This document shows positions 1,690 to 53,950 of a DNA stretch of 64,000 bases, in pieces (position 1 is the first letter of the stretch; each line of letters starts with the position of its first letter). The notes beneath the pieces are model-generated. The model worked only from the letters and a program-made list of their open reading frames with translations. It was not told the origin of the DNA and searched no databases. Made by a program: the position numbers and the translations under genes. This DNA is from Brachionus manjavacas (lineage: Eukaryota > Rotifera > Eurotatoria > Ploima > Brachionidae): the NCBI GenBank assembly GCA_019054805.1, contig JAHQIY010000007.1, forward strand, positions 4,345,501-4,409,500, written 5' to 3'.

Positions 1690-1747
1690 TTTATCAACGA
1701 TTTTGATAAAGTTTGCAAATGGTCTGAAGATTGGTCTACTCAGCTTA
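1690..1747 (+). pseudogene. Upstream piece of a split CR1-like LINE reverse transcriptase
   Basis: The plus strand reads FDKVCKWSEDWSTQLN and then stops at the edge of the MULE element at 1757. This matches the RT thumb region of the LINE at 52.5-53.9 kb, which reads LDKVSNWSTNWSTQLN. The sequence that should follow (VEKSKVLHIGHSN) is found at 4432 and below on the opposite strand, between the two MULE copies. The LINE looks 5'-truncated at about 1690. Confidence 0.65.
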
Positions 1748-1756
1748 ATGTTGAAA
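1748..1756. repeat. 9-bp target-site duplication A, outer left copy
   Basis: ATGTTGAAA sits immediately outside the left MULE. Its partner is not at the other end of the same element. It is at 4426-4434 in reverse complement, beside the inner end of the right MULE. The 9 bp are LINE coding sequence (codons of LNVEK), so they mark the original insertion point. Confidence 0.75.
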
Positions 1757-3178
1757 GGCATATAATTAATTGAACTAGCTAAAATGATGAATTTTACTAG
1801 ATAATAAAAAAATAGATAAAACAGATGAATATTACTAGATATTTTATTAAAACCTTAGATAAAAAGATAAACGACTATTTATTTAGATATTTCATTAGAT
1901 AAAAAATAAAAATACAAGATAAAAAAATGAAAAAAAAAGCAAATAAAATTTAATTAAATTAAGACTAATTAATTCTTCTTCTTTTACTTTTAATTACTTG
2001 CACGTTTTCGTCGGCATTGTTATTTGAAGATGTTCTTTTAGCTGTTGATTTTTGACTCGCGACTTTGTTTGAATTAGAACCCGCGTCACACTTTTTCGGT
2101 CTACCACGCCCACGTTTGGTTTCGATAATATCTGGCGATTTGGAATTAATGTTTTCAAGAGACTCTAAAACTTCCATTTCAAATATCTCGCTTGTACGAT
2201 TTACACGTTGGTTAACTTGCTGGTTTACTGGTATGTCAAAGTAGTCTTCGTAAGTGTCTTCATCGCTTGAATCGCTTATTTGCTCACCAGGTTGTTTGTC
2301 TAAGCATTCTGCTGTGTTTTTTGGTCTACCTGCTTGTCTTTTTTGACCGATCGGAATTACTTTTACATTTGCAGGAAACTCGAACAAAAGTAGACGCTCG
2401 GCAAGAGCAATAACATGTTTGCAAATATAATGTTTAGGCCAATACGGACAACTACAACGACTATTTTTCCAATCTGCCTCATTGAAATCAATGTAGAAAA
2501 TTGACGTGACGTGAGAATAATAAGAATCATAAGTTATCGGCAGTCAACAAAAGATATAATCTTTTGGGACACTCTTTTAAGCAATTGTAGAAGCGTTTTT
2601 CTCCTTCATTTGTTCTTCTTGTATCACATCGAGTCCATTTAACCGAGTCTAGTTGGTTGATATAATCAATCGCTTCTTTAAGGCTTTGACACTCGATTTG
2701 GAGCTCATAATCTTTGTTTTTCCCTCGTTTTTTTCCTTGCGCATTTTGATTTTCAACTAAATCTGCTTGAGCTTGATTAAAAGTACAAGGTAGCGTTGCT
2801 TGTAGATTTTCCCTTGGTACTATCTCGTAAGTCTCTGTGGTAGTAGCCTCAGTGCTTGAATCGGAATCCTCGCTACTATAAGATGAAAAAGATTCATTTT
2901 GGGTCATTTTTAGTTAAATATAGATTCAAAGTAATTTAAGAAAGCAATTTATATTATCAATCTAATTAAATGTCAATTAATTATTTAATTTAAAACTCGA
3001 GTTCAAAATTGTATTATCTAGTGTCAATTTTATCGGATGAATTAATCTCAATTGATATCAATTAATTATTTTATATAGTAAATTCTCTCAATTTATATTG
3101 ATTAATTTTTTTTTATAGGAGCTAATTTTTTTATCTAGTAGATTCATTATTTTATCTAGTATCAATTAATATTTTGCG
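1757..3178 (-). mobile_element. MULE-type DNA transposon, left inverted copy (1422 bp, non-autonomous)
   Basis: The ends are imperfect terminal inverted repeats: GGCATATAATTAATTG at the left and, in reverse complement, CGCAAAATATTAATTG at the right, each followed by copies of an ACTAGATAA/TAGATAAA subterminal motif. The element is a near-identical inverted copy of 4435-5897, with identical encoded proteins, but it lacks about 41 bp near its inner end. A 9-bp target-site duplication and a SWIM zinc-finger gene point to the Mutator/MULE superfamily. No DDE transposase core is present, so it would depend on a full-length relative. Confidence 0.8.
1965..2907 (-). pseudogene. MULE-derived protein: N-terminal zinc-binding domain joined out of frame to a SWIM finger and AT-hook tail (left copy)
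   Basis: The first open segment (2907-2527) has a Ser/Glu-rich start and then a FLYWCH-like block (WTRCDTRR ... YNCLKECPKRLYLLL), the usual N-terminal DNA-binding part of MULE transposases. One frame over follows a SWIM finger (CSCPYWPKHYICKH, Cys-x-Cys...Cys-x-His) and an open tail to 1965 with GRPKN and RGRGRPKK AT-hook-like motifs. The catalytic DDE region that normally lies between is absent. The frame break is identical in the right copy, so it predates the duplication. A frameshifted two-part protein or a dead gene are both possible. Confidence 0.7.
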
Positions 3179-3187
3179 ATTTAAAAT
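3179..3187. repeat. 9-bp target-site duplication B, inner left copy
   Basis: ATTTAAAAT directly abuts the inner end of the left MULE. Its reverse complement is at 5898-5906, directly outside the right MULE. It is AT-rich, so weaker evidence alone than site A, but its position and length agree exactly. Confidence 0.6.
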
Positions 3188-3649
3188 TTTAAATTAATTT
3201 GAAATAAAATTTTTATTTCAATTTTTTACGTTAAAAAAATATTATAAGTTAATATTATAAGTATATATAAATAAGTATTATAAGTATTATAAGTTAAATT
3301 ATTATAAGTATATATAAAAAAGGAGTTTTTAAAAAAAAATTCAATTGAGTTTTTTAAATGTGTTCTGCTTTTTTGTTCTAAAATTCACATAGCTAAAATG
3401 TTGTAATTAAAAGAAAGATTTTGGATTAAAAACTCAAAGACCTGGTTCCATATTGAACCTTTTATGAAAGCATAAAAGTTTAAAAATTTTATTTAGGCCA
3501 CAAAAAATTCAATCCAGTGAAGGTTTAATGAGATAAATAAAGAAAAATGGCTTTTCAAATTTTCGCAGAATGACACAGAACATACCGGTTTTTGAAATAC
3601 TTCAAGATTAAGTCAATTTGTAAAAAAATAAGACCGAATTATTATTCTA

Positions 3650-4434
3650 AAATAGTAGTAGTAGTAGTAGTGTTAACTGCAGCTTGGAGTCAACCAAGCA
3701 GAGCTCTAATGAGCAATAGCAGTCGCTTCAAATCGTTTCGCTATCCAAACATCAAGATTTGCTTTGAAACTGTTTGTATTCCTTGAGTTGATAATTTCTT
3801 CCGGTATTCCACTCATTGACAACCCTGTTAATAAAAAAGTTAAATCTAGGAAGACAACTCCCAACTAGCTCTCGTGTAAGGTGCTGTCTGTGTCTTCTCA
3901 ACTCATGTCTTCTATTATCCATCTTGGAGTTTAGACTATAATTGATCCTTTTGGTAAAATTCACAATCTCTATACCATTAACTATCTTAAACATTTGAAT
4001 CAAATCGCCACATACTCTTCTTGTTTTCAAGTCGGTTAATTTTAACTTTGATAGTCGTTCCGAGTAGTCTAAATGACGCAGTTCATGAACTAATTTTGAC
4101 GCTCTTCTTTGTACCTTTTCCAACGCATTCACATCTTTTTCAAAATAAGGACACCAAGAGCTAATCGCGTATTCTAAGTGCGGTCTGACAAGTGAACAGT
4201 ATAGGAACCTAATCAACTCGAGCGTAGGGAATTTAAACGATTTTCTTATCATTCCTAATAAACGATTTGCTTTCGACGTTGCGTTTTTTACTTGAGTGTC
4301 CCATTTCAAATCATCTTGAATGTAAATTCCTAAGTCCTTTTCACAATCTGACTTATTTAGAGCCTGAGAATAAATTGAGTAATTAAACTTTTTATTGCTG
4401 TGGCCTATATGAAGAACTTTAGACTTTTCAACAT
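3650..4434 (-). pseudogene. Downstream piece of the split CR1-like LINE, inverted between the MULE copies
   Basis: On the minus strand the translation starts at the MULE border with DVEKSKVLHIGHSN, then EKDLGIYIQDDLKWDTQVK, RLLGMIRKSF, SLVRPHLEYAISSW, LEKVQRRASKLV and FINRVVNEWN. This is the C-terminal region of a CR1/Jockey-group reverse transcriptase. It ends near 3785. A short 3'UTR follows and ends in a (CTA)n tail (TAG repeats at 3654-3672 on the plus strand), as in the copy at 52.5 kb. The upstream part of the same reading frame is at 1690-1747 on the other strand. Confidence 0.8.
4426..4434. repeat. 9-bp target-site duplication A, inner right copy
   Basis: TTTCAACAT is the reverse complement of 1748-1756 and lies directly against the inner end of the right MULE. 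Removing the elements and re-inverting the spacer rejoins the LINE codons LNVEKSKV with no gap. Confidence 0.75.
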
Positions 4435-5897
4435 CGCAAAATATTAATTGATACTAGATAAAATGATGAATCTACTAGATAAAAAAGATTATTTTTACTA
4501 TATAATGAATTTATTCACTAGATAAAAAAATTAGCTCCTATAAAAAAAATTAATCAATATAAATTGAGAGAATTTACTATATAAAATAATTAATTGATAT
4601 CAATTGAGATTAATTCATCCGATAAAATTGACACTAGATAATACAATTTTGAACTCGAGTTTTAAATTAAATAATTAATTGACATTTAATTAGATTGATA
4701 ATATAAATTGCTTTCTTAAATTACTTTGAATCTATATTTAACTAAAAATGACCCAAAATGAATCTTTTTCATCTTATAGTAGCGAGGATTCCGATTCAAG
4801 CACTGAGGCTACTACCACAGAGACTTACGAGATAGTACCAAGGGAAAATCTACAAGCAACGCTACCTTGTACTTTTAATCAAGCTCAAGCAGATTTAGTT
4901 GAAAATCAAAATGCGCAAGGAAAAAAACGAGGGAAAAACAAAGATTATGAGCTCCAAATCGAGTGTCAAAGCCTTAAAGAAGCGATTGATTATATCAACC
5001 AACTAGACTCGGTTAAATGGACTCGATGTGATACAAGAAGAACAAATGAAGGAGAAAAACGCTTCTACAATTGCTTAAAAGAGTGTCCCAAAAGATTATA
5101 TCTTTTGTTGACTGCCGATAACTTATGATTCTTATTATTCTCACGTCACGTCAATTTTCTACATTGATTTCAATGAGGCAGATTGGAAAAATAGTCGTTG
5201 TAGTTGTCCGTATTGGCCTAAACATTATATTTGCAAACATGTTATTGCTCTTGCCGAGCGTCTACTTTTGTTCGAGTTTCCTGCAAATGTAAAAGTAATT
5301 CCGATCGGTCAAAAAAGACAAGCAGGTAGACCAAAAAACACAGCAGAATGCTTAGACAAACAACCTGGTGAGCAAATAAGCGATTCAAGCGATGAAGACA
5401 CTTACGAAGACTACTTTGACATACCAGTAAACCAGCAAGTTAACCAACGTGTAAATCGTACAAGCGAGATATTTGAAATGGAAGTTTTAGAGTCTCTTGA
5501 AAACATTAATTCCAAATCGCCAGATATTATCGAAACCAAACGTGGGCGTGGTAGACCGAAAAAGTGTGACGCGGGTTCTAATTCAAACAAAGTCGCGAGT
5601 CAAAAATCAACAGCTAAAAGAACATCTTCAAATAACAATGCCGACGAAAACGTGCAAGTAATTAAAAGTAAAAGAAGAAGAATTAATTAGTCTTAATTTA
5701 ATTAAATTTTATTTGCTTTTTTTTCATTTTTTTATCTTGTATTTTTATTTTTTATCTAATGAAATATCTAAATAAATAGTCGTTTATCTTTTTATCTAAG
5801 GTTTTAATAAAATATCTAGTAATATTCATCTGTTTTATCTATTTTTTTATTATCTAGTAAAATTCATCATTTTAGCTAGTTCAATTAATTATATGCC
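4435..5897 (+). mobile_element. MULE-type DNA transposon, right inverted copy (1463 bp)
   Basis: This is the inverted partner of 1757-3178, with the same TIRs (CGCAAAATATTAATTG at the inner end, CAATTAATTATATGCC at the outer end) and the same encoded protein. It carries about 41 extra bp near the inner end, bounded by repeats of ACTAGATAAAAAA. The left copy therefore probably lost this stretch by slippage between direct repeats. Dense TAGATAA-type motifs lie just inside both ends and are candidate transposase-binding repeats. Confidence 0.8.
4748..5690 (+). pseudogene. MULE-derived zinc-binding plus SWIM/AT-hook protein (right copy)
   Basis: The two open segments are identical at protein level to those at 1965-2907: 4748-5128 (126 aa) and the SWIM-containing frame from about 5110 to 5690. 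The SWIM finger is encoded at about 5190-5240. The switch between frames lies around GCCGATAACTTATG near 5119-5128. There is no intron signal at the switch and no DDE catalytic core. Confidence 0.7.
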
Positions 5898-5906
5898 ATT
5901 TTAAAT
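5898..5906. repeat. 9-bp target-site duplication B, outer right copy
   Basis: ATTTTAAAT is the reverse complement of 3179-3187. It touches the outer end of the right MULE. Confidence 0.6.
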
Positions 5907-5924
5907 AATCATTTTTTACCATTT

Positions 5925-6275
5925 TTTTTTTTTTTTTTACCATTAAATTGATTACATTTTACCAAAATTTACGTAAATTATGGTAATTTTTTTTTTTCAT
6001 AATTTTGGATATAAATATTGAAGGATAACAAAAATTCTTTTTTTTTTAACAAGTGCCAAATTATTTCAATTTTTTGGACATTTTTTTTTTTACATAAATT
6101 TACGTAAAATGATCGAAATTTACCAAATTTTACGTAAAATCAAGTAAATTTACGTTTTTTTACTTTTGTAAATTTACGTAAATTTACAATATTTTACGTA
6201 AAATTCGGTAAATTTACTGTTTTTTACGTAAATTATCGTAAATTACTAAATCCGGAACACCACTGTATTTCATAA
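5925..6275. repeat. Tc1/mariner-type MITE fragment rich in TTTACGTAAA palindromes
   Basis: The stretch is packed with TTTACGTAAA and ACCAAAATTTACGTAA variants. Its right end reads CCGGAACACCACTG followed by TA, which matches the start of Tc1/mariner inverted repeats (CAGTGGTG...) with a TA target site. The left inverted repeat is missing, so this copy is truncated. Related copies are at 36751-37310, 54240-54560 and 61330-61700. Confidence 0.55.
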
Positions 6276-7406
6276 TTTAAGAAATACTTAAAATTTTTTT
6301 TCTAATATCAAAATTGGTTCTAAAATTTTACCAACTGATTTTAATGTGTGATCTAAATCAAGCCTAATACTATGCAAATAAATTTTCGTAAAATTAAATT
6401 TTTGTTCATTTTTAAAATTTTTTGTAGAGATTAGGTTTTACATCCTAAGTTGGCACAGTTTATAGAAATAATTTTTGACTTTTAGAAATTTTGAGTTTTC
6501 TAAGCCTTGTTTAAAATTCACAGTAGCATAATTAGTTTTATTTAAAAACATATAATGGAAGTTGTTCAATTTTTAAATGAAAAATGGTAAAATTAAATAA
6601 TTTTTAGCGCTGTTAGTACACTAGGAATTTTTGAGGCCTTATAATAAAAACTTAAATAAAAATAATTTTTTTTTTTAAAGAGTAGCTGGTTTAGGATCTA
6701 TTATAATTGCATCTGAATTCATTGTGGTTGGCAAATCTTGACTGTTTTCTTTTGGCTGACGTTAAAATGCAGTCTTTTTAGAAGGTTGACCTCTCTTACG
6801 ATTCACTCATTATAATCAAGTTCAAGCCTTCGGGCAACATTTATCTCTTTAAAATAAGATTCAAATGATATCTGAGAAAAATTTAGCATTCTGTCAATTT
6901 AATATGTGTACTTTTTTTTTGTCAGATCATCAGGAATTATTTTTTAATTAATAAAATAAAACAAGAATCTAGATAATAAAGCTTATTAACTTTTTTTCAA
7001 AAATATTCCACTAATGAACAGTATAATAACAGGTTCTTGGTTAAATTTTTTATAATAAATAAAAAAATAAAAGATTTCGTTGTTTTGAAATTAATAAATA
7101 ATTGTTTGTCTGTGTTTAGCTAAAGCTCCTTCAGTGTATCTTCATCGAAATCTGAATTAAAAAAATTTGCTACAAAAAAAGAAATTTAAATTTTTTTTAC
7201 ACAAAAAACTATAAGAGAAATATTTGATAAATAACTTAATTACGTAATAAAAGGGATATCATGAGTTAAACCCTTAACAAATTGAAAAGTGTAAAATATT
7301 CTCTAATTTTTCAAAGATCATTCTCTAAAGATTTATACGGAAGAAGACCAGTGTCTACATCAATTTCATTTTCTTTTATCTTCAAAAAAATTAAATAAAT
7401 TTCACA
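6276..7406. other. AT-rich non-coding stretch with a possible decayed MULE tail
   Basis: No convincing gene. On the minus strand around 6690-6850, broken frames read LELDYNE and RGQPSKKTA, which resemble the linker after a MULE SWIM finger. This is weak and may be chance. Confidence 0.3.
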
Positions 7407-7722
7407 AGTTTAAAAAGTTAGTTTGCGCAAGTGGTGAATTTAAACAGAGTAATCCCGAAAGAAAGGAAATTTACGGTTTCGAATTATTTGAAAATCTTTT
7501 GCGAAGTAACCACCAAGCTAAGCTAACCTGTAATCATAAACTTTTAAAATAATGTTTTAAATTAAGAATTTCGCTGTTTTGAAATTGATAAATTTAACAA
7601 TCTTAAAATAATTGCTGAATGACTACAAAAAATTAATTTTTTATTTATAAATTTTCTAAAGCAATAAAAACTTTACAAAAATTGCTAAATTTATTAATTT
7701 CAAAACAACGAAATTCTCAATT
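7407..7722. repeat. Fold-back element, partial copy with flipped loop
   Basis: Homologous to the full palindrome at 17691-18157. The left arm (GTTAGTTTGCGCAAGTGG onward) is complete, while the right arm is truncated after about 45 bp. The central loop (about 7620-7690) is in the opposite orientation relative to the arm, compared with the 17.7-kb copy. Confidence 0.65.
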
Positions 7723-7744
7723 ATATTACACCGAATTATATATA

Positions 7745-17690: not shown

Positions 17691-18157
17691 AGTCTAAAAA
17701 GTTAGTTTGCGCAAGTGGTGAATTTAAACAGAGTAAACCCGAATGAAAGGAAATTTACGGTTTCGAATTATTTGAAAATCTTTTGCGAAGTAACCACCAA
17801 GCTAAGCTAACCTGTAATCATAAACTTTTAAAATAATATTTAAATTGGGAATTTCGTTGTTTTGAAATTAATAAATTTAGCAATTTTTGTAAAGTTTTTA
17901 TTGCTTTAGAAAATTTATAAATAAAAAATTAATTTTTTGTAGTCATTCAGCAATTATTTTAAGATTGTTAAATTTATTAATTTCAAAACAACGAAATTCC
18001 CAATTTAAATATTATTTTAAAAGTTTATGATTACAGGTTAGCTTAGCTTGGTGGTTACTTCGCAAAATATTTTCAAATAATTCGAAACCGTAAATTTCCT
18101 TTCATTCGGGATTACTCTGTTTAAATTCACCACTTGCGCAAACTAACTTTTTAGACT
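17691..18157. repeat. Fold-back element: 467-bp near-perfect palindrome with short loop
   Basis: The left arm (17691-17882) starts AGTCTAAAAAGTTAG and includes GTTTGCGCAAGTGG and CCACCAAGCTAAGCTAACC. The right arm (about 17965-18157) is its reverse complement and ends CTAACTTTTTAGACT. The loop is about 80 bp. It encodes no protein. Partial relatives are at 7407-7722 and 18368-18560. Such fold-back elements move non-autonomously; the superfamily cannot be told from the sequence. Confidence 0.8.
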
Positions 18158-52520: not shown

Positions 52521-53950
52521 TGTAGTAGTAGTAGTAGTAAAATAAACTACAACTTGAAGCCAGCTTAACTGAGCTCATAGAGCTATAGCAGTCGTTACAC
52601 ATTTTTTCGCCAACCAGTCATCAAGCTTCGACTTAAAACTGCTCAGGCTTCTTGTTTCAATAACCTCTTCCGGCAATTTATTCCAATCGTTCACAACTCT
52701 GTTAACAAAAAAGTTAAATCTTGGAAGACAATTTTTTACTCTTTCTCTATGAATCGTTTTTTTGTGCCTTCTAAGTTTGAAGGCGCAGCTTGAGTCAGCC
52801 CCAGATCGAAAATTTATGCCGTTTACAAAATTCACTTTCTCCATTTTATTTACTAATTTGTACATTTGGATCAAATCACCTCTCAACCTTCGCGTCTTCA
52901 GGTCACTTAGGCCTAGTCTCATGAGTCGTTGCGGGTATTCGAGATGTTTGAGTTCCGGAACAAGCTTCGTCGCTCTTTTCTGTACTTTTTCAAGCTCCGC
53001 GGTATCCTTTTCAAAAAACAGGCACCACGAACTGATAGCATATTCCAGATGAGGTCTGACCAATGATGTGTATAGTAATCTGATGTTTTCTTGGTTAGGA
53101 AAATGGAAAATTAAAAGCTTTCTTGATCATTCCTAAAACTCTATTTGCCTTAGCAGTACAATTTTTCACTTGTACGTCCCACTTAAAGTCGTTTTGGATA
53201 TAAATACCGAGGTCTTTCTCACAAATTGACTTTGTCAAGAGTTGTCGATCCAAACTTTCTGACTTAATTTCATAGTCAAACCTTGTGTTTGAATAACCAA
53301 AGTGCACAACTTTACATTTATCAGTATTAAGTTGAGTAGACCAATTCGTTGACCAATTTGATACTTTGTCTAAGTCCCCTTGAAGATCTATCAATGATTG
53401 GAAATTTTTAATGACAGAAATAATCTTCGTATCATCAGCATAAGCTTCACAATTTGACTCAATCATCTCTGACATGTCATTAATGAAGATGCCAAAAAAG
53501 AATAGGTCCTAAAACCGAACCTTGAGGTACACCACTTGTTATTTCAGCCCATTGTGAAGATGATTATCCAAGTACCACTCTTTGTGTGCGCCCCGTTAAA
53601 AATCCATTGATCCAAGCGATTAGTTTTTCTCCAAATCCATAGAATCGGAGCTTGTACAGTAATTTATGATGAGAAACCTTTTCAAAAGCTTTGGCGAAAT
53701 CTGTATAAATAACATCTACTGGAAAGCCATTTGCAAGAGCGTCTGTAATTATATCAATCGTTTCAAGAAGATTGGTTGTACATGACTTGTTCGGTAGGAA
53801 GCCATGTTGGACCCTATAGATTAGGTCGTTCCCAATGAGATGCTTTAACATGTATTCTTTTACAATACTCTCAAACACTTTACAGACAACTCTTGTGAGA
53901 GAAACAGGACGATAATTTTTGATAATTTTTGTATAGCGCAATGTGCTACC
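52521..53950 (-). mobile_element. 5'-truncated CR1-like LINE with (CTA)n tail
   Basis: The minus strand runs from about 53950 to a TAG-repeat tail (52523-52540 on plus). RT blocks: KNYRPVSLTRVVCKVFESIV, YTDFAKAFEKVSHHKLLYKL (motif A), SGVPQGSVLGPILF (motif B), CEAYADDTKIIS (catalytic YADD) and VRPHLEYAISSW. Frame breaks occur near 53562 (in-frame stop), 53500 and 53090, so it is inactive. It is the same family as the split copy at 1690-1747/3650-4434. Confidence 0.85.

Follow-up and report, generated by a model that had tools for sequence, protein, structure and literature searches.

In a 64,000-nucleotide window of the Brachionus manjavacas genome (the whole stretch analysed; C7:4345501-4409500, contig JAHQIY010000007.1), two nearly identical Mutator-like elements (MULEs) in opposite orientation enclose a 1.25-kb spacer, and their 9-bp target-site duplications (TSDs) match crosswise only. 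Comparison with repeats elsewhere in the genome strongly supports the view that this spacer is inverted relative to its pre-insertion order at both breakpoints. All genome comparisons were made within this one assembly, which holds 114.17 Mb in 61 contigs. In this assembly, the inversion is real.

The left element occupies 1757-3178 on the plus strand (1422 bp) and the right element occupies 4435-5897 on the minus strand (1463 bp). The 9-mer at the outer flank of the left element (TSD1, ATGTTGAAA, 1748-1756, plus strand) is the exact reverse complement of the inner flank of the right element (4426-4434, minus strand). In the same way, the inner flank of the left element (TSD2, ATTTAAAAT, 3179-3187, plus strand) is the exact reverse complement of the outer flank of the right element (5898-5906, minus strand). 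The first-pass annotation of this DNA, made from the letters of the window, had placed these borders and 9-mers correctly to the base and had read the duplications as swapped, as both pairs confirm. When each element is instead compared with its own two flanks, the straight pairs differ at 4 of 9 positions. The chance that two random 9-mers are equal in this AT-rich window is ~6.7e-5, and the plus-strand frequencies of TSD1 and TSD2 are ~3e-5 and ~2.3e-4, respectively. With 9-mer frequencies this low, chance does not explain why both pairs match crosswise at fixed positions. Solitary young copies of the same family behave differently from this pair, as all six that were read carry perfect, matched 9-bp TSDs. 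Macro-transposition of the whole 4.1-kb unit was considered and ruled out because the outer flanks, 1748-1756 and 5898-5906, differ in sequence.

The orientation of the spacer was examined independently of the TSDs. We built a test sequence in which the spacer, turned back, stands between the left and right flanks with a single copy of each TSD, and compared it with repeats fetched from the genome (72 loci), scoring each join under a loose and a strict criterion. With the spacer turned back, the join at TSD1 is spanned by 12 of the 72 loci at 86-98% identity, and all 12 pass the strict criterion. These loci amount to eight distinct long interspersed nuclear element (LINE) places, three of which are represented two or three times. 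Eight of the nine LINE places examined (L026-L034) span the join; the match of the ninth, L034, stops before the junction. The join at TSD2 is spanned by 17 of the 72 loci (12 places) at 92-97% under the loose criterion and by 16 loci (11 places) under the strict one, all of them belonging to the arms of a palindrome-armed repeat. Joined in today's order, the control sequences gave no alignment that passes the strict criterion (0 of 106 and 0 of 97). Under the loose criterion, the right present-order join drew four weak, AT-rich alignments (74-76%, E 0.002-0.006) from four loci at three distinct places inside MULE copies; we count these as noise, as none is strict.

The LINE and the repeat are thus continuous at both joins, and each empty site holds a single target copy. 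These empty sites are paralogous repeats in the same genome, not allelic sites. Under the strict criterion, both joins are matched only when the spacer is turned back, which shows, whatever the TSDs say, that the spacer is reversed relative to the pre-insertion order. The inversion proposed in the first-pass annotation is therefore borne out at both breakpoints, by the paralogous empty sites together with the present-order control. No second allele of the locus was found in the assembly, where the outer flanks match only partially outside the window (20 of 20 candidates scored for the left flank, 40 of 617 for the right).

A misassembled spacer would give a similar picture. Orientation errors classically arise where inverted repeats enclose a short unique spacer, and the locus has just this layout, with arms of 1.4 kb. 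In that case, the true order would be two insertions with straight TSDs. The contiguity of the assembly speaks against this, since 61 contigs for 114 Mb (C1 at 12.1 Mb, C7 at 6.4 Mb) imply, by our estimation, long reads that would span the 4.2 kb of the locus. We consider an artefact very improbable.

At the left breakpoint, a 61-bp 5' remnant of the split LINE (1696-1756, plus strand) ends in ...STQLN plus TSD1. Its continuation, VEKSKVLHIG, lies in the spacer, in an open reading frame (ORF) on the minus strand at 3752-4453. In a related LINE of the window, STQLNTDKCKVVHFG is read through uninterrupted, so that the split frame pointed out in the first-pass annotation is genuine. The inverted spacer itself (3188-4425, minus strand) has three parts and runs from the palindrome-armed repeat to the LINE: positions 3188 to ~3256 are the inner part of the repeat, the middle ~400 bp has few matches in the genome, and ~3653-4425 is the 3' part of the LINE. 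A Pfam scan of the spacer ORF returned no match. The LINE label for 3653-4354 is suggested by 66% DNA similarity to 52523-53232 together with the copies in the genome, and a frame at 53098-53508, which overlaps 52523-53232, has an RVT_1 match.

The genome copy counts are lower bounds, with 40 of 75, 330, 617 or 102 candidates scored depending on the search. Sixteen other places match 37-90 bp ending at TSD1, at 82-100% identity, and 12 of the 16 run on into spacer sequence with a 9-bp overlap (by coordinates; 40 of 330 spacer candidates scored). On the right, the rest of the repeat arm that the second copy entered (5898-6268, plus strand) has at least 40 further matches starting from its first base, at 93-98% (40 of 617 candidates scored). 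The repeat is foldback-like with arms of ~440 bp, and the matches listed include at least 14 inverted pairs whose members lie within 1 kb of each other, for example C28:436282-436646 (minus) and 437049-437420 (plus).

The two elements had been described as MULEs. The family assignment stands, whereas the copies are not complete elements. The elements have terminal inverted repeats, with 89% identity between bases 9-52 of the left end and the reversed opposite end, and the terminal 22- and 23-mers are exact at the ends of both window copies. Each copy carries coding remnants, on the minus strand in the left copy and on the plus strand in the right one, that consist of two slightly overlapping stop-to-stop frames: a 128-residue N-terminal part and a 192-residue part with a SWIM zinc finger. 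In the right copy, these frames lie at 4742-5128 and 5112-5690, respectively, and the SWIM finger (PF04434) is matched with E 1.9e-6; the left copy has the same ORFs. The PF10551 catalytic domain was not found in the two right-copy ORFs or in three ORFs of sister copies that were scanned (L011, L012). The N-terminal region of one of these, L011, matches frames that adjoin PF10551 matches in this genome. Two examples are C8:2885771-2886502 (57% to the L011 N-terminal part, beside the PF10551 match C8:2885477-2885695) and C5:1481231-1481875 (51%, beside C5:1480836-1481057). To judge from these features, namely terminal inverted repeats, 9-bp TSDs and MULE-like coding remnants, the family is an internally deleted, non-autonomous MULE derivative. 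Its eight young copies, 918 to 2311 bp long, have several different internal deletions, one of which is shared by the window pair and a third copy, L009.

How the two copies are related bears directly on how the locus was built. The window pair was aligned with six other young copies. Between its two members there is 1 substitution in 1,420 columns, and 1192 bp of the arms are identical without a gap. In length, they differ by one base in each of two homopolymers and by 43 bp that only the left copy lacks; a T at 1433 is likewise peculiar to the left copy. L009, the other copy with the same internal deletion, differs from the two window copies by 5 substitutions in 1,422 columns and 4 in 1,463. 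Two sites set the pair apart. The pair shares a C at position 979 (right-copy numbering), whereas the six other young copies and the older L015, L016 and L018 have T (L019 has a gap). At position 777, which adjoins the internal-deletion junction, both have T, whereas L009 and L011-L014 have G (L010 has a gap). Other young copies differ from the pair by as few as 2 substitutions when the interior is left out. Since differences are small among all young copies, the whole family is young and the grouping of the pair rests on these two sites. On this evidence the two copies are most likely sisters, while gene conversion between the arms could also account for the shared sites.

The first-pass annotation had instead proposed two independent insertions, which these data do not support. 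Two unrelated insertions in opposite orientation, followed by homologous recombination and by gene conversion that evened out the interiors, would explain the crossed TSDs, and conversion that accompanied the exchange could have spread the two shared substitutions and erased other differences. Yet such insertions would have had to bring the same internal deletion to both sites, a deletion found in just one other copy, and to land close together by chance. For eight randomly placed young copies, the probability that two fall within 1.26 kb is ~6e-4, and for the three copies with this deletion it is ~7e-5, values that are somewhat weakened because striking cases were looked for. We therefore regard a coincidence of unrelated insertions as improbable.

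We tentatively favour local copying followed by recombination between the arms. First, a young, internally deleted non-autonomous MULE would have inserted into a truncated LINE, generating TSD1. A copy of that element would then have landed ~1.25 kb away, in opposite orientation, in an arm of the palindrome-armed repeat, generating TSD2. Finally, homologous recombination between the inverted arms would have flipped the 1.25-kb spacer, so that each element would now combine an end and a TSD of one site with an end and a TSD of the other. Inverted arms that are long and nearly identical lend themselves well to recombination. We favour it here because recombination is to be expected between 1.4-kb arms that are this alike and separated by 1.25 kb. 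We infer the sister status (from two informative sites), the order of the events and a flip by recombination rather than by transposition.

Two considerations weigh against this history. An exchange between distinguishable copies would leave chimeric elements. The alignment of the two arms that had been proposed with the first-pass annotation reveals near identity and no visible chimerism, a comparison of low power as there are just two informative sites, both in one half. The other consideration is that a one-step event needs fewer steps. It is conceivable, though somewhat doubtful, that a single MULE flipped the 1.25 kb itself while duplicating, through sister-chromatid ends or replicatively, with no prior second copy. 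In one such aberrant transposition, which we likewise hold to be possible rather than probable but still a strong rival, transposase would take one end each from the two copies of the single MULE in the LINE, on sister chromatids (or homologues), and the resulting hybrid element would insert into the repeat arm at a distance of 1.25 kb. The product would be the same after replicative intramolecular transposition of the Shapiro type. After the first insertion, one event of this kind covers the near identity, the shared substitutions, the opposite orientation, the closeness and the crossed TSDs. It also predicts identical copies with no flanking deletion or duplication, and the pair is indeed nearly identical with continuous joins. 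On the other hand, matched TSDs in all six solitary copies read argue that mis-pairing of ends is not common in this family, and the identity would likewise be expected had one copy derived from the other before the two recombined. To our knowledge, this inversion reaction has not been demonstrated for a MULE, and our literature search, which drew on parts of the sources, turned up no such demonstration.

Published cases point in the same direction as the one-step event. According to excerpts of PMC2775673, hybrid element insertion with the copies at the same site has an outcome like that of ectopic recombination, with copies that are identical and not chimeric. In citrus, a rearrangement associated with a MULE is reported in which the 9-bp TSDs are dissimilar and lie 2 Mb apart (PMC4334395, in part). 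Homologous recombination, as suggested in the first-pass annotation, is plausible for our locus; it is not shown, as no chimerism is visible and hybrid element insertion predicts a strikingly similar result. Since the copies are almost identical and not visibly chimeric, the crossed TSDs cannot decide between the mechanisms.

Other close or inverted arrangements of MULE sequence occur in this genome. At C2:4400391-4410224 (L071, L072), two 4.64-kb inverted copies, 99.6% alike, lie 563 bp apart and have open frames of 562 and 563 residues that cover the MULE domain; the edges of these repeats showed no 9-bp TSD, either straight or crossed. The locus at C10:1395235-1407641 was rejected as a pair of single elements, for it is a near-perfect palindrome of 12.4 kb (98.9% identity with its reverse complement), without a spacer and with a related MULE terminus in each arm. 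This palindrome may be either real or a fold-back assembly artefact. Related MULE fragments alternate in orientation at ~12.8-kb spacing on C11 (~2067800-2106400; L024, L065, L066), which suggests a tandem segmental array. Eight MULE-domain matches in mixed orientations, seven of them with the same score, lie within ~31 kb at C18:1098172-1129517. Further close MULE pairs are direct on C14, C13 and C11, and there is one on C4.

Within the window, a 467-bp palindromic repeat at 17691-18157 is 90% self-complementary, and a copy at 7397-7728 aligns to it in both orientations, at 84% and 96%. Frames on the minus strand at 672-1531 adjoin the left breakpoint. The frame at 672-1220 has a DUF229 match (PF02995, E 3.7e-24), and the LINE remnant starts ~165 bp from the 1199-1531 frame.

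Small, young and readable throughout, this locus has paralogous empty sites at both breakpoints. It offers a way to ask whether MULEs act as passive recombination substrates or as mis-transposing agents of chromosome rearrangement. In addition, it illustrates that two independent insertions plus recombination cannot be taken as proven from crossed TSDs alone. Our literature search for swapped TSDs with a MULE returned no paper, which is not proof of absence from print.

The closest parallels, as far as excerpts of Delprat et al. 2009 (PMC2775673) describe them, are the Galileo inversions 2j, 2q7 and 2z3 of Drosophila buzzatii, which also have two opposite transposable element copies at their breakpoints and exchanged TSDs. 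In inversion 2z3 of Drosophila buzzatii, the exchanged TSDs were read as ectopic recombination after the copies had been shown to be chimeric, and each non-inverted breakpoint carries a single target copy, which in our case is seen through paralogous repeats (PMC2775673, in part). Unlike the locus described here, Galileo belongs to the P superfamily, makes 7-bp TSDs and is associated with chromosomal polymorphic inversions, with demonstrably chimeric copies in 2z3 (same excerpts). Our inversion, in contrast, spans 1.25 kb and involves a MULE that makes 9-bp TSDs and whose two copies are not visibly chimeric. It also resembles hybrid element insertion or alternative transposition of the P element and Ac/Ds, which, according to the same part of PMC2775673, is predicted to yield an inversion with identical copies and this TSD pattern if one site is shared. 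For our locus, such a mechanism is a candidate proposed from the sequence. In citrus (Arrufatina), CitMule is likewise a MULE whose non-matching 9-bp TSDs record a rearrangement, but that case, as the available portion of PMC4334395 presents it, is a 2-Mb deletion with a single inverted element, not a two-copy inversion. The elements themselves are like other non-autonomous, internally deleted Mutator-like elements in their terminal inverted repeats, 9-bp TSDs, SWIM finger and homologous N-terminal region. Taken together, the locus is a clean but ordinary example of an already known type of rearrangement, caused either by recombination or by a mis-step of transposition.

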